Shown here one piece after another: positions 859 through 63,295 of a stretch of 64,000 bases of DNA. The translations under genes were made by a program, and so were the position numbers. The DNA is from Candidatus Pyrohabitans jungbluthii. Lineage in GTDB: Archaea > Hydrothermarchaeota > Hydrothermarchaeia > Hydrothermarchaeales > BMS3B. Position 1 is the stretch's first letter; each line of letters begins with the position of its first letter. Below the pieces are notes generated by a model, which worked only from the letters and a program-made list of their open reading frames with translations, was not told the DNA's origin and did no database searches. Where the stretch lies: positions 62,001-126,000 of the forward strand of contig MTMD02000001.1 of NCBI GenBank assembly GCA_002010065.2, given 5' to 3'.

Positions 859-3800
859 TCAGACCCGCCTCAGGGCGGAAGTCTTCTGTTCGATATACCT
901 CTCCAGGAGCTCCCCCTTTTTCTTCAACTCTTTATCCTTCTCCTCCAGGAGCTTCTTAAGCTCCCTAACCTCCTCCTCCAGCTTTTCCTTTTCCTCTAGG
1001 AGTGAGGAGTACTTCTTCTCAAGCTGCTTTGCGCTCTTGTATGCGCTTGCCTCTATCCTGCTGAAGATCTTCTCCGCCGTTGCTGTGGCGTTCTTTATAA
1101 GCTGGCCAGCCTGGGAAAGAAACTCCGTCCTTGCCTCTCTGCCCTCCCTGACTCCCGGCGCAGTGCCAACGCCAAGCTTTGCATCCTCGAGGTACTCTAT
1201 CGCAACCCTCAAGAAGGAAACGCACCTCTCCACATCCCCATCAATCCCATCAACGCTCGCAGAAAGGGTGTACAGCTTCTTTATAGACTGAGAGGCGCCC
1301 TCAATGGCGATATCCACCTGCTTTGCGCTGTACTTCCTGAAGCAGGCTTCAACACCCTTCGCAGCCTTCCCCAGCGCTGCGAAGACCTCCTTCTCCAGCT
1401 CCTTAAGCTCCTTCTCAACCTTCACCGACTCCTGGAGCAGCTTCTGCTTTAAGCGAGAATTCTCATTTTTCAGCATCTCCATCTCCGCGCTCAGCTTCGC
1501 AAGCTCTCTGCGCAGCCTCTCAATCTCGACATCCCTCTCCTTCTGCTCTCTAACGGCGCTGTCCACCCTGCCATAGAGGAGCAGGTTCTCCTTTTCCAAA
1601 GTCTTGCACTTCTCCTCATACTGCTCCAGCTTCTGCACCTTTGCTTTGAGTTCCTCGAAGGCTTTGCTTTTCAACGCTGCCTCCTCACGAAGCGAATGGT
1701 ACTCCTTCGCAAGCTTTGCCAGCTCCTCCTTCTCCTGGGTGAGGCTCTCAAGCTCCGTCCTGTACTGGGAAAGCGCTGCCTCCTGCTCGCTGAATTTCTG
1801 CTTCAGCTTTTCATGCTCGCCCTTCAGGGCCTCAAATTCATAAAGCTTCGCGAGCATCCGCTCAATTTCCTTCTCCATCCGGGAGTTCTCTTCCAGCAGA
1901 GCTTTAATCTTGCCTCTCGCCTCCTCAAGCTCCTTCGCATTTTTCTCATTCTCTGCGGTAAGGCTGGTGATTTGTTCCTTCGCCGCCTCAAGCTGGGCCT
2001 CAAGTTTTGCCACCTTGCTTTCTTCCGCCGCTAACCTCTGCTTCAGCTCCTGATTTTCCTTCTCATAGCCTTCGAGAAGCTTTATCCTTGAAACCAGCTC
2101 CTGAATCTCCTTCTCCAGCTTTTCTCTGAGGTTCTCAAGCTCGCCCTTCTCCTCCCTGGTTATCTTGAGTTCTTCCACGCGTGCCCCAAGCTCCTGCTTC
2201 GTGCTATTAAGCTCTTCCTCCAGCTTCTCCTTCATGGCTTCAAGCTCAGCGAGCTTTGCATCAAGCTTCTTAATCGTATCCTCCAGCTCGACGATCCTAT
2301 CCTTGGCCGCGAGAAGCTCTCCCTTCGCCTGCGTCGCCTCCTCCTCGTATTTTTCAAGAAGCTTCACCCTGCTGGCAAGCTCACTCCTCTCGCTACGTAG
2401 CTCTGCAAGCTCATTCTCAAGCGTCGCCTTCTCCACATTCAGCTTCTCTACAAGGGTCTCAAGCTCCTGCTTGGCCTCGGAATCTTTCCTTAGCTGGGCT
2501 ATTTCCCTCTCCTTCTCCTTCAGCTCCTGCGTAGCCCTGCCAAGCTCTTCCCTTTGCTGGGAAAGCTCCTTTTCCAAGCTCGCCTTCTCAGCGAGCGTCG
2601 TGGTAAGCCTGTCCTTTAGCTCAGCTACCTCTCCCTCAAGTTTTTCAATGCTGCGCTTCGCAGAAGCCAGTTCCGCCTTGAGGTCTTCATTTTCCTTCTC
2701 AAAGCCCTCAAGCAGCTTTACTCTACTTACATATTCTTCTATCTTCTCGCTCAACTCCTTAATCTTCGCCTCGTTGTCTATCCTGACCTTCTCAAGAACC
2801 CTCTTCTCCTCTTCGAGCAATTCTTTCTCTTCCTTAATTTTAAGAAGCTCCTCAATCTTTTCCTTTGCCAGACTGTGCTCATTCTCAAGTTTCCTGTACT
2901 CCTGCTCCAGCTTTTGATGTTTTTCTTTAAGTTCTGCCAGCTCCTGCTTCACAGCATCGAGGGTTTTCACCAGCTCGTTAAGCCTGGCGCTCTGCTCCTC
3001 GACGGTAAATTGCGAAGCGCGGAGATTCTCAGTTAACTCCTCAACCTTACCTTCAAGCTCTTGCTTTTTATCACCCAGCACCTGGAGCTTCTGCTTTAGC
3101 TCCCGTATAAGGGAGCGCATCTCCTTCTTCTCAAGATCATCGCCCGCAAACTCCCACTTCTCAACCTTCTCCGCCGAGAAGTCCAGAATAGCGCGAATGC
3201 TCTCATGAGCCCTCTCATAACCTTCAAGAAGTCTGTCTCTGATAAACAGCGTGGCGCGCTCCTCCACCATCTCCTGGTTTCTCGCCAGCAGCGCGTCGAT
3301 CTCTGCCTTCCTCTTCCTTAGTTCACCGAGCTTTTCATCAATCTCCCTCTTCCGCTCCTTCAAGCTATCGCATCTCTCCTTCAGAGAGGGTAGGTCTGAA
3401 AACTCCCTTAGTATCTCCTCCTCCTTTTCCCGCTTTCTCCTCTTAATCACCTCATATTCAGAGGAGAAATACTTCAGCTTGAGCTCAAAAAGGTCTGTCC
3501 TTGCCTTAATCTCCCCTATACTCGCCTTGCCGGTAATCTTTCCCACAAAACCCCCCTTTGGAGAAATCTCAAGAACACCTCCCCCCGATGAGTATTCATC
3601 AAGGAGAGTTTCCAGGGTAACAGGCTTACCGGCCAGCTTAATCTCCACATCCTCGGCATAGGGGGCGATGTCCCTGATAAAAGCCTGCCTCACCCTCGAG
3701 GCTTGCGCTGAGAACTCCCTCTCCACCTCATCTCTACTGCGCTCATACTCCTCAATCTTCTTTGAATAAGCCTCCTCGCAGCTCTTCAGCTTGCCTTCAA

Positions 3801-4167
3801 CTTCCTCAGCCTCCTTCTCCAGGGAGGCTATCTCCTCCTCAAACTTCTTGAGCTCCTGCTCTCCCTCAGAAACCGCCAATAGCTCTTCACGGGTTTTTGT
3901 GACCTGCTCACAGAATTCTTCGAGCATCTCAGAGGCGCGTATCCCCGTATTTTTAACAAAATCCCGCTCCTCTGGGAAATTCTCGTGTATCAGCTTAATT
4001 AGCTCAATAAGAGGGCTGCGAAGCGAGAGTGAGCGTTTTTCTATCTCTGTCAGCATGTCTATAAATTCCCTGCTTGCAGGTTTCTCTAAAGATGAAAGAG
4101 ATTTTATATCCTCATGGATTGAATACCACTCACTTCTGAGCACGTCAAGAAGCTCGCTTACCCTCAT
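859..4167 (-). CDS. Giant coiled-coil protein (SMC-like rod, no ATPase head)
   Basis: A 1102-residue protein, almost entirely Lys/Glu-rich heptad repeats. The N-terminal ~100 residues and a stretch at about 160-225 (rich in Gly, IRDIAPYAEDVEIK then GGFVGKITGK) are the only likely globular parts. No Walker A, Walker B or signature motif is visible, so it is not an SMC or Rad50 ATPase despite the resemblance. A motif of the form SRxKLLEGYEKEN recurs at about residues 477, 598 and 691, with weaker copies further on, showing internal duplication. No signal peptide or membrane helix. It is convergent with bioY and divergent from the receptor gene at 4352. Function unknown; a structural or scaffold role is inference. 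Confidence 0.8.
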   Translation of the reverse strand: MRVSELLDVLRSEWYSIHEDIKSLSSLEKPASREFIDMLTEIEKRSLSLRSPLIELIKLIHENFPEERDFVKNTGIRASEMLEEFCEQVTKTREELLAVSEGEQELKKFEEEIASLEKEAEEVEGKLKSCEEAYSKKIEEYERSRDEVEREFSAQASRVRQAFIRDIAPYAEDVEIKLAGKPVTLETLLDEYSSGGGVLEISPKGGFVGKITGKASIGEIKARTDLFELKLKYFSSEYEVIKRRKREKEEEILREFSDLPSLKERCDSLKERKREIDEKLGELRKRKAEIDALLARNQEMVEERATLFIRDRLLEGYERAHESIRAILDFSAEKVEKWEFAGDDLEKKEMRSLIRELKQKLQVLGDKKQELEGKVEELTENLRASQFTVEEQSARLNELVKTLDAVKQELAELKEKHQKLEQEYRKLENEHSLAKEKIEELLKIKEEKELLEEEKRVLEKVRIDNEAKIKELSEKIEEYVSRVKLLEGFEKENEDLKAELASAKRSIEKLEGEVAELKDRLTTTLAEKASLEKELSQQREELGRATQELKEKEREIAQLRKDSEAKQELETLVEKLNVEKATLENELAELRSERSELASRVKLLEKYEEEATQAKGELLAAKDRIVELEDTIKKLDAKLAELEAMKEKLEEELNSTKQELGARVEELKITREEKGELENLREKLEKEIQELVSRIKLLEGYEKENQELKQRLAAEESKVAKLEAQLEAAKEQITSLTAENEKNAKELEEARGKIKALLEENSRMEKEIERMLAKLYEFEALKGEHEKLKQKFSEQEAALSQYRTELESLTQEKEELAKLAKEYHSLREEAALKSKAFEELKAKVQKLEQYEEKCKTLEKENLLLYGRVDSAVREQKERDVEIERLRRELAKLSAEMEMLKNENSRLKQKLLQESVKVEKELKELEKEVFAALGKAAKGVEACFRKYSAKQVDIAIEGASQSIKKLYTLSASVDGIDGDVERCVSFLRVAIEYLEDAKLGVGTAPGVREGREARTEFLSQAGQLIKNATATAEKIFSRIEASAYKSAKQLEKKYSSLLEEKEKLEEEVRELKKLLEEKDKELKKKGELLERYIEQKTSALRRV

Positions 4168-4290: not shown

Positions 4291-4306
4291 TAAAAAAGTT
4301 TATATC
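4291..4306 (+). promoter_or_regulatory. BRE/TATA promoter of the receptor gene
   Basis: TAAAAAAGTTTATATC: an A-rich BRE-like tract joined to a TATA box, about 50 bases before the receptor ATG. The same AAAAAAGTT core recurs before the first HEAT gene (6467) and the MinD gene (9817). Confidence 0.6.
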
Positions 4307-4351
4307 AAATAAATTTAAAAATTTTTAAATATTAATTCAGGGTGCACTGAG

Positions 4352-6442
4352 ATGCTCGGGATTATAAAAAAGGTTGGGTCGGCAATAAGGAACATGAAAC
4401 TTGTTTATAAAATTGTTGGAAGCTTTCTGATTATTGCCCTCCTATCCCACGCTGTGGGAATAATCGGGTACATGAAAATCGGAGAGATTAATTCAGCAAC
4501 TGCGAGGATATCTCAGGAGGCGTGGCCAAAAGCCGAAGCTTCTGCCCGGCTCTCAGAGGAGCTTTTTCTGCTTTCAGAATCTGCACTTAAGTATGCGGTT
4601 GCAGATTCTGAGATGCGCAAGGAGCTTAAAGACAGCTACTTCACCAGGGGAGAGAGATTGAGAGAGCTTATAGCTGAGATGGACGCCCAGCCTCTACATG
4701 TTCAGGAAAAGGAGGCGATGCTGACAATAAAAGAGACCTTCCCAAAATTCTTTGAGGCCGGGCTTACGCTGATGAGCGCATACGAGGAACTGAGCACAGC
4801 AAGAGAAGAGATTTCAGAGAAGGCTGAGGAGATCCACGAGGTGGGAGATGAGATAATCGAGACATCTGAAAGTCCTGCAATTAAAGAAGGAATCATAGAG
4901 CAGATGCTGGCAGCCTATGAATACATCAGCATCGGAGAAGAAGAGGAAAAGGAAAGGTTCTGGGAGGTTGGAAATAAATTAAAGGAACTGCCTGAGTATT
5001 CGAGCATAGAGGAAGAGCATACGCATTTTGAGGAGATTGCTGCAGGGCTTTTCGATACTTACGAGGATATGAAGGTGAAAGAAGCTTATGCAGAGGAGAG
5101 GAGGAGAGAATTTGAGAATTACAGAGACATTATTGTAACAAATGCCAGGAACCTCATTGAGGTGCAGAGGGAAACAATGGTCAGTGCAATGGCCACTGCT
5201 ATTCAGGAAAGTCAGGACACCAAAGAGGAATTGCAGACTGTTGCAGGTGCCGCAGTGCTTCTTGCTTTGATTTTTGCCATTGTTGGAGTGAGGACGATTA
5301 CCCGCCCGCTGAAGGAAATTTCAGAGAAGGCCAAAAAGGTTGCTAGGGGTGACCTGACGGTGGAGATCCGCAGCCAGAGCAAAGACGAGCTAGGTGAAGT
5401 TGCTAACTCCTTCTCTGCGATGCTTAAATCCCTGAGAGAGCTTATTGGTGATGTAAGAAGGGTGGCAGAAAACATCGCCTCTTCCTCCCAGCAGCTTTCT
5501 GCCACCAGCCAGAACGTCACTGCCTCGGCGGAGGAGATCAACAGCATAACCCAGGAGATAGCGGAGAGCTCTGCTACTGTCGCCTCAAAGACTCAGGAGA
5601 CAATGAAGGTCATGGACAATATGGAAGGCTCCCTTAACAGGGTGGAGGAAAGCGTGGCAAGAGCGATGAGCATAGCTGCTAGAACACGGGAGACGGCTGA
5701 GCAGGGAAGCGATGCCGCAAAGGAAGCGCTGGGCAGGATCAGTGAGATGAGAAGGCTAACCTCTCACACATCTGAGATGGTGAGAGAACTCGGGGAGAGC
5801 ACACAGAAGATAAGGAGGATCGTGGAAGTGATCTCCAACATCGCGGAGAAGACGAACCTGCTCGCTCTAAACGCCGCGATAGAGGCTGCGCGCGCAGGTG
5901 AGCATGGTCGAGGCTTTGCTGTAGTTGCGGAGGAGATAAGAAAGCTGGCGGACAGCTCTGCAAAGTCGGCAGAGGAAATAGGAAGCATAATCGACGAGGT
6001 AGGGAGGAAGGTAGGACAGGTGGTAAGCGAAATAGAGGCAAGTGCTGAGGATATAGAGAGTGGCACCCAAGTGGTGAGCAGTGCCCTTGCTTCTTTCAAC
6101 GAAATAACAAAAAGTGTTGAGGAGACCAGTGGGGTAATAGGTGAGATAAATCTCGCCACCAAAAAGCTTAAAAATGATGCAAGGAGCGTAATTGAATCAG
6201 CTAACTCCATTGCGGCAATGATAGATGAGACTGCTGCCGCAACCCAGGAGACAGCCGCCGCTGTTCAGGAGCTTAGCGCCGCGATGCAGGAGCTTGCAGC
6301 CATGGCTGAGCATCTCTCTGAGGCGGCGCAGCAGCTTGAGGATTCTGTGAAGATGTTTAAGGTCACTGATTCACCACCTACGAAGTCCGTGGAGCCTCAA
6401 AGCACATCTAAAAGCGTTATATTGGAAAGCTTAAGTAAATAG
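4352..6442 (+). CDS. Methyl-accepting chemotaxis-type receptor
   Basis: A transmembrane receptor whose cytoplasmic hairpin would control a CheA kinase. Helix 1 is at about residues 19-41, an extracytoplasmic all-helical sensor spans roughly 42-290 (four-helix-bundle type), helix 2 is at about 293-315, a HAMP domain follows ([20 protein letters not shown]), and the long signalling coiled coil runs from about 380 to 660. The conserved hairpin tip [19 protein letters not shown] is at about 499-517. There is no C-terminal CheR-tethering pentapeptide. GGTG lies 7 bases before the ATG. No che or archaellum gene is near; instead two HEAT proteins and a MinD ATPase follow on the same strand. Confidence 0.93.
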
Positions 6443-6466
6443 AATCTCAAATTTTGTGATAGTTGC

Positions 6467-6486
6467 GAGAAAAAAGTTTTATATTG
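6467..6486 (+). promoter_or_regulatory. BRE/TATA promoter of first HEAT gene
   Basis: GAGAAAAAAGTTTTATATTG, BRE-like A tract plus TATA box. A start about 25 bases downstream would fall near 6505. This places the in-frame GTG at 6456 upstream of the promoter, and so favours ATG 6501 or ATG 6525 as the true start of the next gene. Confidence 0.6.
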
Positions 6487-6500
6487 TCAAGCATAAGGCT

Positions 6501-7934
6501 ATGAATAAAGGAAAAGAAATAGGGATGATCCCCTTGGAAGCTCTGCTGGAGGAAGTGACCCAGCTTAGGGAGCTGGAGAAGACCTATCTCAAGGTTATAA
6601 AGGCGCTTCATCTTGAATGTACGAGACTTGAAGAGGAGGTTTCTCAACTCAGGAGGCTGAAAGAAGAGGTTAAATATCTGCAGCAGCTTGAGCTTTGGTA
6701 TATCAAGGCGCTCAAGGGCTTGAACGAGGAATGCAATCGCCTTGAGAGGGAGATTTATGAGTTGAAGAGGAGGAGCGTCTTACCCCAGACGTCTGTTAAC
6801 ATCGAGAGGTACCTTGAAGGTGACTTCACGCTTCTGGAGCTTCTTGCCTTTGCAGATAGCAGAGTTAGCCTGAAAGCGCTTAAAAAGGCATCCAGCTGGC
6901 TTGGAGTGGAATACAGAAGAGCAAAAGAGGAAATCAAGAAACTCGAGAGAGATGGGATTATCTACCTTAAAAATGGGCATGCGGTGATAAGAAGCGAGGT
7001 GCAGGAGCAGTTCAGAGATTACCTGCTCCGCAGTATTCCAGATAGAGATGAGATAATAGAAAACCTCAATGCCGATGCCATTGAAGCTGTTGAGCTGCTC
7101 CGCCGCAGACGTGGCGTGCTAACAAAAGACAAATTTGAAGAGCTGGACGTGGATAAGAAGGCTGCACTTCTGAAGCTTGTAGAAAAGAAGCTACTCTTCA
7201 GAACCATCGACAGGGATGGTGAGTTAATCTACTTCATGCCCGAAGAAGTTCTCGAGCTAATGGAGGAGCTTCGAGTAGAGGTTGCGAAACGCTCAAAAGT
7301 GACAAGAGAAGAGTTGATGAAAAAATTGAACATCAAAGACCCGACGGAGGAGGAAATTGACCTCATACTAAGCACATTCAATGAGTCTGAACTGGAGCCG
7401 GCTGAGCTTGAAAGCAATGAAACACTTATTGAAGCTTTCCGCAATGAGCAGGTTGATGTGTTGGTAAACGCTCTGAAGAGCGAAGATGTGCACATCCGCA
7501 GATTCGCTGTCTCTGCCCTGTGGAAGATTGGAAGCAGGGATGTGGTGGAACACCTTATCGAGATGCTCGACGATACCGACGCCTATGTTAGAAGGCTCGC
7601 CATCTCGGCGCTATTGAAGATTCCCGACGAGCGCATGGTGGAGCCGATGATAAGGAAACTCGACGACGAGGACAGCATGGTGCGCTACTCCGCTGCGTCC
7701 TACTTTGACAACTACCCTCACTCAAGCGCTTTTCCCTCGCTAGTGAAAGCTCTTAGGGATGAGGACAGCATGGTGCGCACCGTCGCCGCCTCAGCGCTCG
7801 GCAAGCTTGGCATGAAAGAGGCTGTGCCATATCTGATAGAGGCTTTAAGGGATGAGGACGCGTGGGTAAGGCACTGCGCTGCTGAAGCTCTGGACAAGAT
7901 AAAAGGCAGGATAAAAAATGTACGATTGGCTTGA
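6501..7934 (+). CDS. HEAT-repeat protein with N-terminal coiled coil (paralogue 1)
   Basis: Soluble protein of about 477 residues. Order: a coiled coil of two homologous halves (QLRELEKTYLKVIKALHLEC and YLQQLELWYIKALKGLNEEC, each ending in an LExEIxELKRR-like helix); two helical winged-helix-like segments (about residues 95-265, using ATG 6501); a linker [19 protein letters not shown] also present in the next gene; then about five HEAT (PBS-lyase type) repeats of ~31 residues to the C-terminus. An in-frame GTG at 6456 extends the frame but lies before the TATA box; ATG 6525 is also possible. Overlaps the following paralogue by 17 bases. HEAT arrays usually bind protein partners; the partner is unknown. 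Confidence 0.82.
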   Translation: MNKGKEIGMIPLEALLEEVTQLRELEKTYLKVIKALHLECTRLEEEVSQLRRLKEEVKYLQQLELWYIKALKGLNEECNRLEREIYELKRRSVLPQTSVNIERYLEGDFTLLELLAFADSRVSLKALKKASSWLGVEYRRAKEEIKKLERDGIIYLKNGHAVIRSEVQEQFRDYLLRSIPDRDEIIENLNADAIEAVELLRRRRGVLTKDKFEELDVDKKAALLKLVEKKLLFRTIDRDGELIYFMPEEVLELMEELRVEVAKRSKVTREELMKKLNIKDPTEEEIDLILSTFNESELEPAELESNETLIEAFRNEQVDVLVNALKSEDVHIRRFAVSALWKIGSRDVVEHLIEMLDDTDAYVRRLAISALLKIPDERMVEPMIRKLDDEDSMVRYSAASYFDNYPHSSAFPSLVKALRDEDSMVRTVAASALGKLGMKEAVPYLIEALRDEDAWVRHCAAEALDKIKGRIKNVRLA

Positions 7935-9834
7935 TAAGTTGCTGGAGGAGGATGAGAAGGAGCTTAAGGAGATTTCATTCCCTAGAGGTAAGAAGCTCGA
8001 AAAGCACTTCAGAAACCTCAAAGAGGTAAAGAAGTTCATTGAGAAGTCAAAATTTACTGGGATAGTAAGGGCCAAGTCGAGAATTGAAAATGTCTTTCTC
8101 CTGTATCTCCAAGGGGAACTTGCTGGAGCTGCTACCTTTTCAAGGCTTGGGCTGTATACCACATTTGGAGAAAAGGCCCTCAGTAACATCCTTGACTCCA
8201 GTTTCGTTATAGAGTCTATAGAGGAGTATAATCATGAAGAACTCTACTCTACGCTTATTTCAAATCCTGAGATGGTAGCCAACAAGAACCTCCAGAGGAA
8301 AATCTTCAGTATAAGTGAGACCATTGACACCCTCCCCCCAGAGACTGTTGGGCTGCTTGAGATGCTGGTATTCAGTGAGGGGGCTGTACAGAGAGAGCTA
8401 CTGAGAATTGTTAGCCTATCGGTATTTCTCTCTGACTTCGGAGAAAATGACTTCAATGCTGCCATTGACACAATAGATAAGCTTGACTTTGTAACAGAAC
8501 GCAATGGCGGTTATGAAATCAGCAGTGAATACAAAGCCCTGCTGCGGCAGATATTTCTCAAGCGTGCCAAGGTGGAGAAAGCGAGGGAACTTATTAGAAC
8601 CGACCAAACCACCAGTCAGCTCCTTTCCCTTTTAGCCGATACCGGAAAGGTCAGCTACAGTGAACTCAAAAAATTTCTAGGTGGAGAGGTGGACACAGCG
8701 ATAAGCAAGCTTGTGAGCCTTGGGGCTCTGTTTAGAGGCGTGGACAGCAGCGGTTTGCCAACCGTATTCCTCCCGAAAGCGCTTCATGAACAACTCCTCG
8801 CAGAAAGGACAGAGGAAAACCAGCGTGTGGAAGAGGTGGAGCTGAGCAGGGAAGAGCTGATGAAAAAACTCAATATACGTGAACCCACAGATGAGGACAT
8901 CGAGGCTATAGTTCGCTCTATACTGGAGGAGTCTGAGGATGAACTTGAGGCACTTCATCCCCTTATTGAAGCACTGAGAGAGGGCGATGCTCGGGTAAGA
9001 AGCGTCGCAGCCTCCGCCCTAGCAAAGATAGGCGACGCGCGTGCAATTGAGCCCCTGATACATGCCCTGTTTGATGAAGACAACAATGTGAGGGTAAGCG
9101 CTGCAAAGGCGCTGGGCACGTTGAAGAGCCCAAAGGCTGTAGAGCCCCTGATTGAAACACTCAGCGACGAGGATAGTGCCGTAAGAGCAAGCGCTGCAAA
9201 AGCCTTGGGGAGCATTGGCGACACGCGCGCAATAGAGCCTCTGATCTCTACCCTTAGCGACGGGGACAGCACGGTAAGAGCAAGTGCCGCAAGAGCTTTG
9301 GGGAGCATCGGTGACGAACGCGCAATAGAGCCTCTGATTGAAGCCTTTTATAAGGAAGAGGATGAACTTGCGCGCAGGGACATAATATCCGCGCTTTCCG
9401 GTTACAGAGACGAGAGAATACTGGAGATTATGATACAGTGTCTTAAGGATAGAGATGCCTATGTGAGGCGCATCGCCGCCTCGGCGCTCTGGAAGAGTGG
9501 CGGTGAGCGTGCCATTGAACCACTCATCGAGGCGCTCAAAGATGAAGAAAGCACTGTGAGATACTGCGCAGTCTCAGCTTTGGATGGAGTCAAGGATGAG
9601 CGCGTGATTGAGCCGCTCATAGGGGCACTCAACGACAATGATGATATGGTGCGCACCGTCGCTGCCTCTGCCCTGGGCAAGATTAATGACGAGAGGGCGA
9701 TAGAGGCGCTCAAGAAGGCACTTAATGATAAAAGCGAATGGGTTCGAAACTGTGCTGCTGAGGCACTACAGAATCTCGGCGTTAACATCCCAGACACCAA
9801 ACCTGAGACACTCTTCGAGAAAAAAGTTATATAA
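7918..9834 (+). CDS. HEAT-repeat protein (paralogue 2, nine repeats)
   Basis: 638 residues. The N-terminal ~300 residues are mixed alpha/beta with winged-helix-like parts (for example [20 protein letters not shown]). The linker [18 protein letters not shown] is nearly identical to the one in the preceding gene. Nine consecutive ~31-residue HEAT repeats follow from about residue 345, most of the form IEPLIxxLxDxDxxVRxxAAxALGxIGDERA. The last four or five repeats align one-to-one with those of the preceding gene (AYVRR, VRYxAxSxxD, [12 protein letters not shown], WVRxCAAEAL), so the genes are tandem duplicates and the extra repeats arose earlier in the array. Translation probably couples with the 17-base overlap. 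No enzymatic motif seen. Confidence 0.82.
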
Positions 9835-9836
9835 GC
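9817..9836 (+). promoter_or_regulatory. BRE/TATA promoter of MinD gene, inside the HEAT gene 3' end
   Basis: GAGAAAAAAGTTATATAAGC overlaps the last codons and stop of the second HEAT gene. It shares its first 12 bases with the box at 6467. Transcription would begin near 9855, leaving a short leader with GGAGGT. Confidence 0.6.
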
Positions 9837-9869
9837 ACTGACTACGTAACCTCTACCGGAGGTATGCGA

Positions 9870-10667
9870 ATGGGCACATCTATAACAATAGCTGCCGGCA
9901 AGGGTGGTACAGGCAAAACAACCATAAGTGCCAATCTTGGAATCGCTCTTGCACAGAGGGGGAAGAGTGTCACAATTCTCGACGCCGACATAGCGATGGC
10001 AAATCTGGAGCTTATTCTCGGAATGGAAGGGAAAAGCAGAACCCTGCAGGACGTGCTTGCAGGGGAGTGTGAGATTGAGGAGGCCATATATGAGGGTCCA
10101 GGTGGAGTTAAGGTTGTTCCGGCAGGCATAAGCTTGAGCAAGCTGAAAAGGGTGAATCCAGAGAGGCTCGCTGGGGTTATGGAAAGTCTTGTGGATAGAA
10201 CCGATATTCTAATTATTGACGCTCCTGCAGGCCTTGGAAAGGAAGCATACATTGCTCTCTCCATGGCAGAAAATCTCATACTTGTGGTAAACCCTGAGAT
10301 TTCGTCACTATCAGACGCGCTTAAAACAAAAAAGGTAGCTGAGATGTGCGGCACAAACGTGCTTGGTGCGATACTCAACAGGGCAACAGGCAATGAGTTT
10401 GACCTTACTGCGCATCATGTAGGCGCTGTGCTTGAGACACAAATCCTGACGGTGGTGCCGGAAGACAGCGAGGTTAAGAAAGCCTCTGCAATTGGTGTGC
10501 CTCTAGTTATAAGCTCACCCACATCAAAGGCTGCTATTGCAATAAACAGGCTGGCGGCAGAGCTTCTCGGCGAGGAGTACATACCTCCTACAACTCCTGA
10601 GAAAAAGAAGAGCATCCTGCAGAGACTTCTGGGTGGGCTGAAACTTAAGACAAGAAGCGCACCTTGA
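9870..10667 (+). CDS. MinD/ParA-family ATPase with membrane-targeting tail
   Basis: P-loop ATPase of the deviant Walker A type: KGGTGKTT at residues 11-18, then the switch [10 protein letters not shown] at 38-47 and Walker B-like [12 protein letters not shown] near residue 110. Such proteins dimerise on ATP and position cell components. The C-terminus ends in a basic amphipathic stretch ([16 protein letters not shown]), like the MinD membrane-targeting helix. ATG 9870 is preferred over ATG 9864 because GGAGGT ends only at 9863, giving a 6-base spacing. It follows the receptor and the HEAT pair and precedes a single-helix membrane peptide. Whether it positions the receptor, as ParC-type ATPases do in bacteria, is inference. 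Confidence 0.9.
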
Positions 10668-10677
10668 GTGGATACGC

Positions 10678-10908
10678 ATGGTGGACGTTTACACCTCCTT
10701 AAAAATTCTCTACTTTCTCTTCGGAATAAGCCTAACCTTGAACGTAATCCTTGCCTTTAAGGTTAGAAGCCTCCGCCTCAAGATAGAGGAGATGAACAGC
10801 CGGATTACACTGTCTGAAGAGGAGATCCAGCAGATAACCGCACGCCTGAAGCGTCTTAGCGAGCTTCATGGCGACATAGAGCTTCCCCCAATCACACTGA
10901 GAAGGTAG
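10678..10908 (+). CDS. Small single-pass membrane protein with coiled coil
   Basis: 76 residues: one membrane helix at about 7-29 (LKILYFLFGISLTLNVILAF), then a charged helix likely to form a coiled coil (LRLKIEEMNSRITLSEEEI) and a short tail. Ten bases after the MinD stop, so probably co-transcribed; it might anchor a MinD or HEAT partner (inference). The 3' end overlaps the convergent PadR gene by 43 bases. No family recognised. Confidence 0.65.
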   Translation: MVDVYTSLKILYFLFGISLTLNVILAFKVRSLRLKIEEMNSRITLSEEEIQQITARLKRLSELHGDIELPPITLRR

Positions 10909-11774
10909 CGCAAGGAATCTGAGAACTCCCTGAACCTCGCCCTCGCAACCTCCTTGCCCTTTGACGTTATCACGTACATTTTACCTCTCCCTTTGTGGAA
11001 GGATTCCTGCTTTATAAGCCCCTCCTCAGCCAACTCATGCAGAAGTGGGTAAACCATGCCCTGACTCACAAGCACACCGTAGCGATGGAATATGGTTTTG
11101 ATGATATTGTAACCATGCATTGGCTCCTGCATTAGTATGGAAAGGATTATTAAATCCAGAAACTTTTTCACCAGGCTCTCGGTTATCTCAGCGGAGATTA
11201 TCTCGATTCGCCTTTCTTGCGCCTCTCCAGAAACAACGAGGGGTGCGATTACTGTTTTCTCTGCATCAGCCGAAACCACCACTAAGCTGTATAGTCTCAG
11301 AATCTGTTCTAGGAATTCGCTGTCCACCGCCTCGACATTGAAGCAGGTGACAAATGTAGCTTCAGGAAACCTGCCAAATAAATCTTCGAGTACTGAAATA
11401 AACTCTCTGCGCAGGAGATAGCCTGGAGAAGTATCAAAATCGAGAACCGCAGCGCCTCTTTTGTGCTCTATTAAAAATTTTTCAAGGGCTCTGCTAAGGT
11501 TTTGAAGGGTGTTCTCAGCCTTTGCCACCGACTTCTTTATGCCCATTTCATAAATCCTCAGGTTACCTCTGACCCCAAGCTCAACCGCACTCTCCACAAA
11601 GGCGTAAGAATAGAATACACCCTTATTTTCAGATAAACCTGCTTTAACAAAAGCTCTCACCGCTTCCTGCTTATCAAGTTTTGAATCATAGAGAAAAAGC
11701 ACTTTATCTCCATCTGCAATGTTTTTAAACACAAACACTTTACTTTTTACAGGAAAAACCAAAAACTTCTTCAT
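10866..11774 (-). CDS. PadR-type regulator with N-terminal MEDS/DUF835-like sensor
   Basis: 302 residues. The C-terminal ~95 residues are a PadR winged helix (LIILSILMQEPMHGYNIIKT, VSQGMVYPLLHELAEEGLIKQ, GRGKMYVITSKGKE). The N-terminal ~200 residues resemble the degenerate RecA-fold MEDS/DUF835 sensory domain: GDKVLFLYDSKLDKQEAVRA, YSYAFVES, AAVLDFDTSPGY, but no P-loop. The combination is a one-component regulator whose ligand is unknown. A TATA-like TTTATAAT sits about 25-30 bases before the ATG on the minus strand. Its 3' end overlaps the small membrane gene of the HEAT/MinD cassette. Confidence 0.78.
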   Translation of the reverse strand: MKKFLVFPVKSKVFVFKNIADGDKVLFLYDSKLDKQEAVRAFVKAGLSENKGVFYSYAFVESAVELGVRGNLRIYEMGIKKSVAKAENTLQNLSRALEKFLIEHKRGAAVLDFDTSPGYLLRREFISVLEDLFGRFPEATFVTCFNVEAVDSEFLEQILRLYSLVVVSADAEKTVIAPLVVSGEAQERRIEIISAEITESLVKKFLDLIILSILMQEPMHGYNIIKTIFHRYGVLVSQGMVYPLLHELAEEGLIKQESFHKGRGKMYVITSKGKEVARARFREFSDSLRYLLSVIGGSSMSP

Positions 11775-39599: not shown

Positions 39600-40538
39600 A
39601 TGAATAAGATACTCGGCTGCATCTTGATTGTTGCCTCAGGCGTAGCAGCCTATGCCATAAGCAGCATATATCCTGCTCTAAACGCCCTGTTCATCGCCCT
39701 TATTTTCGGCATAGCCTTCGGGAGTATCCTCGAAAGCAAAGAGATGAAAGCCCTGGCAGAGAGGTCTCTCGTGGTAACCCTCCCTGTGGGCATAATATTA
39801 TACGGGGCAAACATAAAGTTCCCTCTTCCATGGGACTTTCCAACACAGGTTATTATCCTCACCTTCCTCTCAGCCACGCTGATGGGCACTGCCGTTTATC
39901 TATTTGCGAAGATACTTAGGGTGAGGGAGAAGCTTGCATTACTTTTAGCATGCGGTACTGCGATATGCGGCGTCTCCGCCATAGCTATACTCTCCCCAAT
40001 AATCAAACCGAAAAAGGAGGAGTTCTCGGCCGCTATTATAATAATAACTGTTGTGGGGCTGACAGGGGCTCTGCTCTACCCCTTCCTGGGCTACATTTTA
40101 GGAATGAGCAGCAAGATTTACGCGTTTATGAGCGGAGCCACACTGCACCAGACTGGTTTAGTCGTGATAGCTTCAAAACCCTTTGGCAGCGGGGTTCTCC
40201 AGGACGGTCTTGCTGTGAAGGGAATACGCATAGCCATGATAGCCTTGGTGGCCCTCTTGGTCTCTTTCGTTTATGCTGAACACAGGTTCTACATCCCGTG
40301 GTATGTGGTTATCTTCCTGCTTGTGGCTTTTCTCACCAGCTTTGTTCTTCCACATTATATTGTTAATATGCTCAAACCCTTCTCCACAATAGCCTTTTCC
40401 ATAACCCTCGCATCAATAGGATTCTCTGTGAATATAAGAGATATTCAGAATATACGTTTGAGCCCACTTATCGCAGCTTATTTGGGCTGGTTCTGCGCAA
40501 TAGGCATATTTATTTTTATTATGGGGTGGGTACTATGA
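39600..40538 (+). CDS. YeiH-family transporter (UPF0324, putative sulfate exporter)
   Basis: About 312 residues with ~10 helices. The family signature ACGTAICGVSAIAILSPIIK is at about residue 115, and HQTGLVVIA follows near 180. Annotated in homologues as putative sulfate exporter without direct proof. ATG 39600 has GGGAG 8 bases upstream; ATG 39570 also possible. The short protein at 42821 resembles the N-terminal extension seen in longer YeiH homologues. ATGA overlap with the sensor gene. Confidence 0.85.
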   Translation: MNKILGCILIVASGVAAYAISSIYPALNALFIALIFGIAFGSILESKEMKALAERSLVVTLPVGIILYGANIKFPLPWDFPTQVIILTFLSATLMGTAVYLFAKILRVREKLALLLACGTAICGVSAIAILSPIIKPKKEEFSAAIIIITVVGLTGALLYPFLGYILGMSSKIYAFMSGATLHQTGLVVIASKPFGSGVLQDGLAVKGIRIAMIALVALLVSFVYAEHRFYIPWYVVIFLLVAFLTSFVLPHYIVNMLKPFSTIAFSITLASIGFSVNIRDIQNIRLSPLIAAYLGWFCAIGIFIFIMGWVL

Positions 40539-42721
40539 GGATGCCGATATTTTTTAAAATAGTCACCATCTCGCTCCTGTTTTCAATGTTATCTCTTGGG
40601 CTCTTCACTGTCAGCTTTGCGACCCCTGGAGGGTTTACCCCAGCTTATTTCCTCTATATGGTGATAATCATCCTGGGAATCTCTCTTTTTGTCGCCGGTA
40701 GCATAACAGAGCCTCTGGAAAGGCTGAAGGTTGGCTTTGAGAGAATTATGAGAGGGGGCAACGCCCATGTGGAGATAAATACTGGAGACGAGTTTGAAGA
40801 CCTCGCCCATGCGTTTAATCACATGGCGGGGGAGTTGACAAGGCAGAGGGAGATGCTGAAGAGGAGTGAGGAGAAGTACAGACTTCTAATAGAGGACATC
40901 AACGACTGGGTATTTGAGCTGGACGAAAACTGGGTTTACACCTATTCCAGCCCCAAGGTCAGGGAAATTCTGGGCTATGAGCCTGAGGAGGTTCTGGGAA
41001 AGACGCCGCTGGATTTCATGCCCGAGGAAGAGAGAGCATTAGCTATTAAAAAAATTAAAGAAATCAGAGAAAAGCAAACTTCGTTTTCGGGGCAGGAAAA
41101 TGTTTTCATGAAAAAGGATGGGAGTTTTGTAGTACTGGAGACCAGCGGCAGGCCATTTTTTGATGAAAATGGAAGTTTAAAGGGTTACAGAGCTGTTAGT
41201 AGAGATATAACTGCAAGAAAGCGGGCTGAGGAGAGATTAGCCTACCTCGCAGGAATTGCTGAGCATTCTATAGATGCGATAATCTCTCTGGACCTTGAGG
41301 GGAGGATAGTCTCCTGGAACAAGGGTGCGGAGATGATGTTTGGGTATAAAGAAGCAGAGGTAATAGGGAATCTAATGAATAGCATTGTGCCAGAAGAGCT
41401 CTGGGATTCCTGTGGGAAGAATTTTAAAAAGGCGATTATGGAGGGCTACGCCAGGGATATAGAGACCATAAGGCTCGCGAAGGATGGGAGAAGGGTGCTG
41501 GTGGACCAGACGCTTACCACAATTTACAACCCCAAGGGTGAGCTTATAGGCTTTGTTGCAATAATGCGAGATATAACCAAGCGAAAGGAGGCTGAAGAAG
41601 AGCTTAAAAGGGCGTACAGGCAACTGGAGGAGAGAACCAAAGAGTTGCTGAAATCCCAGAAGGAGCTGGAATACTTTGCAAACATCGTTGAAAATTCCAA
41701 CGATGCTATCTACTCTGTAAACCTAGATGGAATTATTACCAGCTGGAATAAAACCGCTGAAAAGATGTTCGGCTGGAGAAAAAATGAAGCTATAGGTATG
41801 CAGGCAGGCAAACTACTGCCAGATGAAATTAAGAATGAAACACCCTTCCTTATTCAGAAGGTAAAGCAGGGAGTGAAGTTCATATCCTACGAGACCAAAA
41901 GGGTGAGCAAGGACGGCGCTATAATAGATGTGGATGTGACCATCTCACCAATCTTGGACGAAAGTGGTAATCCAGCGGGATTTTCTGTGATAGCGAGGGA
42001 CATATCTTCCAAGGTTAAAGCCGAAGAAGGGATGCTCAAGAGGATTTTGAAGTACGATGTTAGCAGGGGCAGGATTTACCTGATAGAGGAGCCCTTTCCA
42101 GACCTTGCCAAAGATGTACTCCTTGACCTAGTAAAATGTGGTTATGCAGGCACAGTGATAACAAGGAGGCTCGCAGAGGAGATAGGTGTACGTGGTGTGG
42201 TGTATTTCTGGCTCTCTGAGAAGAGAGGAAAAGATACTCTCTCACCTGAGATTTCTGAGGTGGAGTCTACGATAATGAACCTGCCAAACTGGAACAATGC
42301 CGTGCTTTTAGAGCTGGACTACCTCATCCTTAAAAATGGATTTGAGAAGGTGTTTGAATTCGTCCAGAGAATGAAAGAGGCATTTTATTTCCTGAAAAAG
42401 GGTGTGCTGCTTCTTTCATTAGACCCTGAGATTCTGACACAGAGGCAGGCAAAGCTTCTCAGGAAGGAATGTGGCATTATAAAGCCAAAGCAGCATGAAC
42501 TCCCGCCTGAGGTTTTTGAGATTTTAAGGCATGTTTACATGGAGAACAGGGTAGGGAAGAAACCGTCTATTAAGGAGATTATGCAGAAGTTCAACATTGC
42601 GAGAAATACAGCCAAAAAACGCATACGGTACCTCGAAGGTAAGGAATTGGTGAATGTGGTCAGGGTGGGTAGGCTGAAGTTACTTGAGGTCACAGAGAAG
42701 GGTAAAGAGCTATTCTATTAG
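40535..42721 (+). CDS. Membrane PAS-DUF835-winged-helix one-component sensor
   Basis: About 728 residues. Two helices (about 7-29 and 36-57) with almost no outer loop, HAMP (58-108), PAS1 (about 115-230), PAS2 (236-355), coiled linker, PAS3 (376-495), a DUF835 domain (about 500-635: MLKRILKYDVSRGRIYLIEE, then LLELDYLILKNGFEKVFEFV) and a C-terminal winged helix (KPSIKEIMQKFNIARNTAKK). There is no histidine kinase. PAS loops with SWNKGAEMMFGYKEAE and SWNKTAEKMFGWRKNE are typical. ATG 40535 overlaps the YeiH stop (ATGA). A membrane-bound transcription factor for this sulfur locus is inferred. Confidence 0.88.
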   Translation: MRMPIFFKIVTISLLFSMLSLGLFTVSFATPGGFTPAYFLYMVIIILGISLFVAGSITEPLERLKVGFERIMRGGNAHVEINTGDEFEDLAHAFNHMAGELTRQREMLKRSEEKYRLLIEDINDWVFELDENWVYTYSSPKVREILGYEPEEVLGKTPLDFMPEEERALAIKKIKEIREKQTSFSGQENVFMKKDGSFVVLETSGRPFFDENGSLKGYRAVSRDITARKRAEERLAYLAGIAEHSIDAIISLDLEGRIVSWNKGAEMMFGYKEAEVIGNLMNSIVPEELWDSCGKNFKKAIMEGYARDIETIRLAKDGRRVLVDQTLTTIYNPKGELIGFVAIMRDITKRKEAEEELKRAYRQLEERTKELLKSQKELEYFANIVENSNDAIYSVNLDGIITSWNKTAEKMFGWRKNEAIGMQAGKLLPDEIKNETPFLIQKVKQGVKFISYETKRVSKDGAIIDVDVTISPILDESGNPAGFSVIARDISSKVKAEEGMLKRILKYDVSRGRIYLIEEPFPDLAKDVLLDLVKCGYAGTVITRRLAEEIGVRGVVYFWLSEKRGKDTLSPEISEVESTIMNLPNWNNAVLLELDYLILKNGFEKVFEFVQRMKEAFYFLKKGVLLLSLDPEILTQRQAKLLRKECGIIKPKQHELPPEVFEILRHVYMENRVGKKPSIKEIMQKFNIARNTAKKRIRYLEGKELVNVVRVGRLKLLEVTEKGKELFY

Positions 42722-61441: not shown

Positions 61442-63295
61442 TCATCTCCTCGTAATAGATTCCTCCAATTCCTCCCTGGGAAGGCGCATGCGCTGCTTTA
61501 AAGCTTTTGCTATTTTATAAATAAGAAAGGCTGCAACACTCATCGCAATTAAGACCACGAAGAAAAAGATCGCCGGCGATAGACCAAAGATCCTCTTTAT
61601 CAGCTTCGCCTCCACGCTTGTGCTTCGCCCTGAGAAAACCTCAACCTCGGTTTCGTAGGGCATGTAACCAGCCTTCTCCAGCCTCACCCTGTACCTTCTA
61701 GGCGGAAGGTAAAGCTCCGCGTCTGTGGTTGCGACACGCTCACCATCGATATAGACTTCAGCACCTGTAGGGATGGAGCTAACCACAAGAAGACCCTTTT
61801 CCACCTCCTCCCTGTAAACATCAAAAGTAACCTCATCGCTGGCGGTGCTCTTCCCATCACTAACCTCGGCGCGTAGCATGTAGCTCCCAGCCTCAAAGGA
61901 TGAGACATCCAGCCTGTAGCTTCCTTCAGCTTCGCTCCCCTGGTAGAGTGTGGTTACTCCCTTAGTGGAAATAAGCTCTATCCTCACAGTGAGAGGGTCT
62001 CCATCAGCATCCTGAGCAACCCACCTCACCTCAACCTCGCCCGAAGCTTTTGCTCCATTAGCTGGTGAGACTATCTCAACCTCGGGGGGAGTGTTCTTTC
62101 TCTCTTCTTCCTCACGTACCTCCTGCTTCTGCGGCTGTTGTGTAACGTCGACACGCCAGCTCACCACCACCTCACTGAAAGGCGCTGAGACAATGCACTC
62201 CACAACGCCAGAACCAAGCTTCGCTGTATAGGTGAATTCGCTATCCCGCGAAACGTCTATGCCATTGAAACGCCAAAGGTAGCTCACCTTCAGCTCGTCG
62301 GTGTGCTCCGCCTCAACGCCAAAACGAACCTCCTCACCCGGCTTTACTGTGAGCTTCTCAGAGGTTGGATGCCGGGAGAGCACCTTAAGTGCGCTATCCA
62401 CATTGCCCAGAAAAATCATTGGTTCAATCTTGTAGTGGCGAAGCACATCTTGGGTGCGCAGCCCCTGAGTGGTGCCGTATGTATAGCCTGGCTCATACCT
62501 CATTAACCTGAGTCTGGTCTCGTAGTAGGCGTACTCCACCCCAACAAGCTCGTCCCTGCCATCGCCGTCAACATCTCCAGCGAGCAAGGCTGCAAAAGGC
62601 TGTGTATATTTTGCCTCCCCTATTTTGTTAAGCTTCTCTGTCAAATCGCGGATGTAGGAGGTGTCGTAAAGAAAGATGGTTAGCCTCGTCTCATATGGCA
62701 AAGCCTGGATGGCGATGAGTTCATCTATACCATCACCGTTAATGTCGCCAGCGAGCCAGTTCTCAAGGGACTCGCGGTACTTGAGCATGTCCAGCTGGCG
62801 CAGCTTCTCTGTTATCCCCCGGGAATACTCAGGATCATAGGTGTAAAGGTAGATCTCTGTCCATGCAACCTTGGGCTGAATAAGGATAAGCTCATCCACA
62901 CCATCGCCATTGACGTCGCCGGCTAGCCACCTTCCTGCTTCGCTACCATGGCGTGCAACGTCGAGGCGTAGCAGCTTATTTTCATCCCTGTCGTAGCGGT
63001 ATATCTCAAGCTTGGAGCCCTGCGCCTCCCTCACCACCTTTATAAGCTCGTCTATGCTATCTCCGTCAACATCACCTGTGAAAAAGTTCGCCCAGTATGG
63101 CAACTCCACCACTGCCTTCTTCTCTAAACCATAGTTGTTGCCATAGGCATAGCCACTTTTGTACTGGAAAAATGAAAGCTCCATTCCCGTGGTGGTGTTA
63201 ACCGCGATTACAACCTCATCCACAGGGTAGGAGGGAAGCGCATGGAGATGCGCGAAGGTGAGCAGTATCGCCAGTGTCACTATGAGCCAGCGCAT
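61442..63295 (-). CDS. FG-GAP repeat / PEGA domain surface protein
   Basis: About 617 residues. Signal peptide (MRWLIVTLAILLTFAHLHAL), four calcium-type FG-GAP repeats (GDVDGDSIDEL, GDVNGDGVDEL, GDINGDGIDEL, GDVDGDGRDEL), two Ig-like regions, a PEGA domain (SSIPTGAEVYIDGERVATT) and a C-terminal membrane helix with basic tail. ATG 63295 lies about 25 bases after TATA (CTTATATATG), hence likely leaderless; the frame opens at 63316. Outer-face adhesion or polymer binding is inferred. Confidence 0.85.
   Translation of the reverse strand: MRWLIVTLAILLTFAHLHALPSYPVDEVVIAVNTTTGMELSFFQYKSGYAYGNNYGLEKKAVVELPYWANFFTGDVDGDSIDELIKVVREAQGSKLEIYRYDRDENKLLRLDVARHGSEAGRWLAGDVNGDGVDELILIQPKVAWTEIYLYTYDPEYSRGITEKLRQLDMLKYRESLENWLAGDINGDGIDELIAIQALPYETRLTIFLYDTSYIRDLTEKLNKIGEAKYTQPFAALLAGDVDGDGRDELVGVEYAYYETRLRLMRYEPGYTYGTTQGLRTQDVLRHYKIEPMIFLGNVDSALKVLSRHPTSEKLTVKPGEEVRFGVEAEHTDELKVSYLWRFNGIDVSRDSEFTYTAKLGSGVVECIVSAPFSEVVVSWRVDVTQQPQKQEVREEEERKNTPPEVEIVSPANGAKASGEVEVRWVAQDADGDPLTVRIELISTKGVTTLYQGSEAEGSYRLDVSSFEAGSYMLRAEVSDGKSTASDEVTFDVYREEVEKGLLVVSSIPTGAEVYIDGERVATTDAELYLPPRRYRVRLEKAGYMPYETEVEVFSGRSTSVEAKLIKRIFGLSPAIFFFVVLIAMSVAAFLIYKIAKALKQRMRLPREELEESITRR

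Follow-up and report, generated by a model that had tools for sequence, protein, structure and literature searches.

What joins a chemoreceptor to two HEAT-repeat proteins, a MinD ATPase and a small membrane peptide, all encoded in one row on one strand, is the question raised by a locus (4291–10908) of Candidatus Pyrohabitans jungbluthii, a deep-sea, heat-loving archaeon. The locus lies in a window of 64,000 nucleotides (nt), positions 62001–126000 of contig C1 in the 1.99 Mb source genome (G000). An original prediction, made from the letters of the DNA, had described a same-strand order of receptor, HEAT, HEAT, MinD and membrane peptide; the five forward frames are present in that order and domain searches agree. 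The strongest new result obtained here, and the main content beyond the emphasis of that prediction, is a conserved membrane micropeptide that travels with MinD, a link that rests on gene order. The pairing of MinD with the peptide, and the unit of two HEAT genes (HEAT1 and HEAT2) followed by the peptide, are better supported than the five-gene whole, and the earlier interpretation of the row as a possible localisation or signalling system is, overall, partly supported.

The micropeptide gene closes the row (10678–10908, forward strand) and encodes 76 residues with a single transmembrane segment. The ratio of non-synonymous to synonymous substitution rates (dN/dS) lies between 0.06 and 0.14 for all five genes between species wherever dS could be computed (against G001, G003 and G004; dS against G003 was not computable for HEAT1, HEAT2 and MinD, and for the chemoreceptor it was near saturation), and all five look to be under purifying selection between species. 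Given these values, 0.10–0.14 for the peptide gene itself, this short gene is very likely real. Its product has one membrane helix (about residues 8–26) followed by a charged helix, the hydrophobic segment of 19 residues sitting near the N terminus. In the family profile, which holds 15 rows (14 from behind MinD and one from behind HEAT2), the C-side flank of this segment is net basic in 14 rows and neutral in one, and none of the 15 has a net basic N-side flank, each being neutral or acidic there; the positive-inside rule would accordingly place the C-terminal helix in the cytoplasm. Six residues are invariant in the alignment (S18, N22, L25, E49, R56 and L57), the last three within a core motif, LSEEEIQQITARLKRL (10810–10857, forward strand), that is a putative MinD contact. 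The peptide and six relatives matched no Pfam or NCBIfam family above cut-off, and MinE was absent among the matches of these seven peptides to both collections at E up to 0.1; one relative (L182) gave a match to FtsL (8.9e-5) below cut-off.

Outside the home phylum, the peptide stood behind a MinD gene wherever it was examined. The profile matched at E 1e-5 in 32 of 297 genomes, 16 of these in the home phylum; many genomes are without the peptide, since outside the phylum 258 of 274 gave no match at this threshold, and in the phylum of G104 it is found in 30 of 36 genomes. At all 32 extra-phylum loci examined (32 genomes in three families, f16, f31 and f51), a MinD gene (52–61% identity) lies directly upstream on the same strand, at a distance of −4 to +4 nt in 31 loci and −56 nt in one. 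One of these loci (L181) is itself a profile row and 31 are independent of the profile. The two genes overlap by exactly 4 nt in 17 of the loci, an arrangement common among translationally coupled genes. Two or three tandem peptide genes follow MinD at L184 (G176), L247 (G309), L246 (G315) and L193 (G043), and one at the other loci. In search listings of open-licence papers in PMC, no known MinD–peptide link was found beyond HVO_0596.

Within the home phylum the picture is more varied. A match at E 1e-3 occurs in 18 of 23 genomes, in some weakly, and the peptide is encoded behind MinD in 14 of the 23. Among matches of at least 80 bits, 17 of 19 lie behind MinD (split over two frames in G015) and the other two directly behind HEAT2. 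MinD stands upstream at 18 of the 30 phylum loci examined and is not upstream at 12, which comprise two HEAT-linked loci, copies of the M48-linked type and weak matches; six of the 36 phylum matches, including one of 25 bits in G006:C32, fall outside this adjacency count. No MinD accompanies the matches of 20–36 bits in G008, G009, G011, G012, G013, G014 and G017, which were left out of the family. A further copy in the source genome (L173:7005–7190, reverse strand; G000:C15:152004–152168) is preceded by a gene for a membrane M48 protease, and one in G004:C45 (L174:7063–7314, forward strand) has a similar-looking gene ahead, with no MinD in either stretch; these third copies, in which a stop falls inside the match, are ordinary short genes that end at that stop.

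The ATPase of the row (9864–10667, forward strand; 267 residues) is an archaeal MinD with a match to ParA/MinD-type ATPases, scoring 336.4 bits against minD_arch (TIGR01969; curated cut-off, 201.75), with the deviant Walker A motif GKGGTGKT at residues 12–19 and MinD-1 (1hyq) as its nearest solved chain (3.5e-81). Its C-terminal helix is amphipathic by sequence and is predicted to bind the membrane; the tail that had been proposed earlier bears scrutiny, its best C-terminal window scoring higher than 99.6% of the windows of the same protein. In a tree of 45 MinD rows (some on long branches; the paired MinDs of G006 and G008, identical to that of G009, were omitted), the four MinDs from complete rows form one clade (100/100), placed among phylum MinDs that are mostly peptide-paired (15 of 20 rows; support 92/78, drawn open). 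Possession of a peptide gene behind MinD requires five changes on this tree, against a mean of 15.3 when the trait is shuffled. The source genome has another MinD–peptide pair on contig C2 (L119:5691–7413), convergent with a second, peptide-less MinD that is 42.7% identical to the MinD of the row; the same arrangement is present in G001–G005 and G007–G009.

Ahead of MinD lie the two HEAT genes, HEAT1 (open reading frame 6456–7934, forward strand; likely start at 6525, near that of most relatives) and HEAT2 (7918–9834, forward strand; 638 residues). That both carry HEAT repeats is confirmed (HEAT_2; PF03130, HEAT_PBS, 2e-15 for HEAT1 and 7e-49 for HEAT2); that they are mere HEAT arrays is not. 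HEAT2 comprises a β-domain, two winged helices at about residues 120–217 and 218–305, and the longer HEAT array, according to an AlphaFold2 model (mean predicted local distance difference test score (pLDDT) of 83.2 and predicted template modelling score (pTM) of 0.74 for residues 1–345) and a fold search. The winged-helix assignment draws on VIA-align rows whose Z reaches 11 at most and of which many are helical or generic; the fold search with the N-terminal part found nothing at E 0.001 or better, ScpB being among the best, insignificant matches (E 4.2e-3), and its second pass covered mainly residues 114–305. Residues 22–347 match DUF2226, on which no publication was found. HEAT1 consists of an 80-residue coiled coil, a predicted winged-helix region and HEAT repeats (model mean pLDDT 78.0, pTM 0.41). 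Within the coiled coil a motif is repeated, the two copies sharing 12 of 24 residues, a level that none of 500 shuffles attained, and the middle of the protein, about residues 144–334, matches the HEAT2 profile; on the model and this homology, HEAT1 is predicted to have the same winged-helix region as HEAT2. Winged helices can bind DNA or protein.

A pattern-based scan of a contig collection of 84,980 species, from which the home genome may be excluded, found relatives of HEAT1 at five loci, labelled Candidatus Pyrohabitans sp. JdFR-17, Hydrothermarchaeota metagenome-assembled genomes (MAGs; three) and Euryarchaeota (one). The profile of the HEAT2 N-terminal part matched in 20 of 297 genomes, strongly in seven (G000–G004, G010 and the distant G014), all of which contributed rows to it. 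The peptide accompanies the HEAT1–HEAT2 pair, a link again drawn from gene order, in all six genomes that have the pair, directly in two and with MinD between in four. In G010, from another family of the same order, the peptide follows HEAT2 after 13 nt with no MinD between. In G002, of the home genus, an intact peptide frame begins 143 nt past HEAT2, and a MinD remnant (residues 3–21, 63% identity, E 0.001) lies between the two. Peptides of the genus HEAT rows, that of G002 included, end in an extra tail, SELHG(D/E)IELPP; MinD-only peptides are without it, and the HEAT-linked peptide of G010 has only a short, different one. This tail is a possible second docking site, for the HEAT proteins, and it is also constrained by overlap with a regulator gene described below.

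The first gene of the row (4352–6442, forward strand, after upstream sequence from 4291) encodes a methyl-accepting chemoreceptor (MCP) of 696 residues, with a sensor region flanked by hydrophobic segments starting at residues 21 and 295, HAMP (4.3e-15) and MCPsignal (1.7e-42) domains, and a 16-residue signalling hairpin tip that is invariant in five aligned orthologues except at its first residue; it thus has the HAMP domain, signalling domain and conserved tip of a chemoreceptor. The genome has two MCPs, and since the other, a 478-residue PAS receptor, has no hydrophobic segment, that of the row is the sole membrane receptor of this kind. Along the row, successive genes are separated by 13 nt (82 nt from the likely HEAT1 start), −17 nt (the HEAT2 start overlapping the HEAT1 end), 29 nt and 10 nt. 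All five genes recur in this order in three of the four other genomes of the genus (G001, G003 and G004), with the same flanking genes; the expected co-occurrence thus holds within a single genus, as a syntenic block, and the receptor is missing from the fourth, G002. There, no MCP match was found within 4.8 kb upstream of HEAT1, nor any orthologue of the MCP sensor half in the genome, whose closest match falls at the HAMP-side end (E 6.1e-9). An MCP orthologue in G010 (29–34% identity) lies at the end of a separate contig (C193), which we do not claim adjoins the HEAT contig (C147), their ends having no common 21-mers.

The original prediction had also stated that no che or archaellum gene was near. 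This is true of the identified neighbours, although not every open reading frame of the window was scanned; the genome itself is not che-free, and with two CheA genes, one CheW and an archaellum cluster present, an orphan receptor in a genome without chemotaxis genes was rejected. On contig C8 (362–378 kb), one strand carries genes for a histidine kinase, CheY, CheA, CheC, CheD, a 204-residue protein, ArlCDE and four archaellin-like proteins, with no MCP among them; a second che cluster (52–68 kb) holds the PAS receptor, CheW and the second CheA. Chemotaxis and archaellum genes have been described for Hydrothermarchaeota, and neither MinD nor HEAT repeats are mentioned in the available main text of that report (PMC6775978). 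Of the 23 genomes of the phylum, nine match both the CheW domain and ArlDE, and six of these nine carry the HEAT pair; it is in none of the 14 others, four archaellum-only and four CheW-domain-only genomes included (a below-cut-off ArlDE match in G021 was scored as absent). These are small counts.

These observations lead us to a tentative reading of the row as a cassette that gives a receptor its own membrane positioning and scaffold module, to which we assign somewhat less than an even chance; its contacts, topology, co-transcription and positioning role are what we infer. In this proposal, MinD would bind ATP, dimerise and hold to the membrane through its C-terminal helix. The micropeptide would be anchored by its one membrane helix with the charged helix in the cytoplasm, and would serve as the partner of MinD, as an anchor or an activator of its ATPase. 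A HEAT1–HEAT2 scaffold would dock on the same peptide and link this to the row's MCP. The receptor array serving the archaellum-linked CheA/CheY pathway, in whose own cluster no MCP is encoded, would in this way be placed or held where it is needed. The MinD–peptide part of this mechanism is the strongest and the MCP part the weakest. It is also possible, though doubtful, that the micropeptide family is an archaeal counterpart of MinE that sets the MinD ATPase cycle, and that in Hydrothermarchaeota it was duplicated and gained a C-terminal extension docking the two HEAT/winged-helix scaffolds, by which a general MinD positioning device came to carry a chemoreceptor.

Several observations weigh against a receptor-positioning cassette. 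The five-gene order is confined to one genus and a syntenic block, and the receptor link could therefore reflect nothing more than common descent. G002 has neither the MCP nor the cassette MinD yet retains Che and archaellum genes, and upstream of HEAT1 in G010 we see, by eye, a divergent transposase-like start rather than the end of an MCP. A distant relative of the HEAT2 N-terminal part (20% identity), encoded at the end of a contig, is present in G014, where MCP, CheW and ArlDE are all without a match. Genomes with no match to MCP or CheW (G005–G009) also have MinD–peptide pairs, of another type, and the pair as such is therefore no chemotaxis device. The HEAT pair associates equally with Che and with archaella (Fisher p 0.019 each; 0.0008 for both together), in tests that take related genomes as independent, with five of the six HEAT-pair genomes belonging to one genus and some MAGs incomplete; the idea that the pair follows Che in preference to archaella was given up, the associations being equal and the pair occurring only where both are found.

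In one alternative, HEAT proteins, peptide and MinD would form a membrane scaffold with a job other than taxis, in the envelope, pili or chromosome, and the MCP would be a mere neighbour. We regard this as the alternative that survives best, unlikely but to be taken seriously: the MCP is missing at the G002 locus and its adjacency is not established in G010, MinD–peptide pairs persist without MCP or CheW, the winged helices and a divergent coiled-coil gene next to the row would suit a role with DNA or the chromosome, and the insignificant ScpB and below-cut-off FtsL matches lean the same way. What speaks against it is that Che and archaellum genes are both present in each of the six HEAT-pair genomes, that the pair is absent from the 14 genomes of the phylum in which one set or both is missing, and that G002 is without MCP and cassette MinD alike.

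An improbable second alternative makes the HEAT pair an output link that replaces CheF between phosphorylated CheY and ArlCDE, with MinD and peptide only holding the pair at the motor. CheF (PF04283) has no match in G000 and matches in only two of the 23 phylum genomes, G020 and G022; it is absent from all six HEAT-pair genomes, and those two, which have Che and archaellum genes and no pair, have it, G018 being without CheF and pair alike. In Halobacterium, the HEAT_PBS protein OE2401F is indispensable for taxis and has CheD and a CheF protein as interaction partners (PMC2666748). Against replacement, OE2401F acts alongside CheF and has no detected domain besides HEAT in the available text of that work (PMC2666748). 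The uncharacterised 204-residue gene between cheD and arlCDE (L110:5941–6555), a possible CheF replacement, is also the better placed substitute. That the MinD–peptide pair regulates assembly of a type IV pilus or the archaellum in the manner of FleN/FlhG, the MCP supplying signals, is quite improbable: after archaeal MinDs, the nearest solved relatives include FleN and other site-determining proteins, but no pilin or pilus ATPase gene was identified beside the cassette or beside the G002:C67 MinD–peptide pair, where the genes identified nearby are of CoA-ligase type and for phosphoglycerate kinase.

Other genes frame the row. On its far side, a gene for a PadR-type regulator with a MEDS-like N-terminal part (10866–11774, reverse strand; PadR 5e-15, MEDS 0.012 and below cut-off) converges on the peptide gene with a 43-nt overlap (10866–10908), the final 14 codons of the peptide running antiparallel to the end of the regulator gene; an overlap of about 46 nt is also present in G001, G003 and G004. 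This regulator is a neighbour, perhaps linked to the cassette. Its paralogue (PadR plus MEDS; L110:1018–1968, 27% identity) stands at the edge of the che/archaellum cluster on C8, where it is followed by a lone receiver domain (L110:1018–2336). Divergent from the MCP gene is one for a coiled-coil protein of 1,102 residues (859–4167, reverse strand), with SMC-like matches all below cut-off, which adjoins the cassette in G001, G003 and G004 too and has no match within 4.8 kb upstream of HEAT1 in G002. Elsewhere in the window, positions 40526–42718 encode a signalling protein of 731 residues with HAMP, three PAS stretches and DUF835.

Beyond this locus, a concrete candidate for a MinD partner is the micropeptide, some 60 residues long, that is encoded directly behind MinD in three archaeal families beyond the home phylum and in 14 of 23 genomes within it. 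The cassette suggests a route by which the MinD–peptide pair might be steered to a chemoreceptor, in genomes with Che and archaellum genes where CheF has no match. One comparison is with MinE of Escherichia coli, a small MinD partner that has a helix with an important arginine, is encoded behind minD and is not an integral membrane protein. Peptide and MinE are both small, have a helix with a notable arginine and are encoded behind minD; the peptide differs in its membrane helix and its lack of a MinE match.

Among systems that position chemoreceptors, ParC/ParP is defined by a CheW-like adaptor, ParP, encoded with the ATPase. None of the five row proteins has a CheW match, CheW-domain matches in the genome being on contig C8 only, and the cassette, on C1, lies away from both che clusters, with its ATPase gene outside the che operons. 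Like the cassette, ParC/ParP of Vibrio and PpfA of Rhodobacter tie an ATPase of the ParA/MinD family to taxis proteins; Vibrio ParP is an adaptor contacting MCP and CheA, and the ParC homologue of Halothiobacillus, unlike the cassette MinD, is encoded inside a chemotaxis operon, as far as the available texts describe them (PMC5706961, PMC10241942). ParC of Vibrio uses a polar landmark and PpfA the nucleoid (PMC5706961, PMC10241942), whereas the cassette MinD has a predicted membrane-binding tail. In the place of ParP, the cassette would use HEAT proteins and a transmembrane peptide.

There are archaeal parallels too. In Haloferax, MinD4 and MinD2 influence where chemosensory arrays and archaella are placed, and the available text describes no HEAT pair or MCP in the minD2 operon, unlike the cassette (PMC11588486, PMC11621097). 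As with the cassette minD, a gene follows minD2, namely HVO_0596, which is probably co-transcribed with minD2; its tagged product is reported to be diffuse and its deletion to cause no phenotype (PMC11588486), so it is probably not a membrane peptide of the cassette type. OE2401F shares HEAT_PBS repeats with HEAT1 and HEAT2, and a tie to archaeal chemotaxis; as described in the accessible part of its report (PMC2666748), it is a HEAT-only protein encoded in the che region beside a CheF gene, whereas the two HEAT proteins of the cassette have winged helices and are encoded apart from che, and CheF has no match in their genome. By analogy, the cassette would be like ParC, PpfA and Haloferax MinD4 in kind, with different adaptors.

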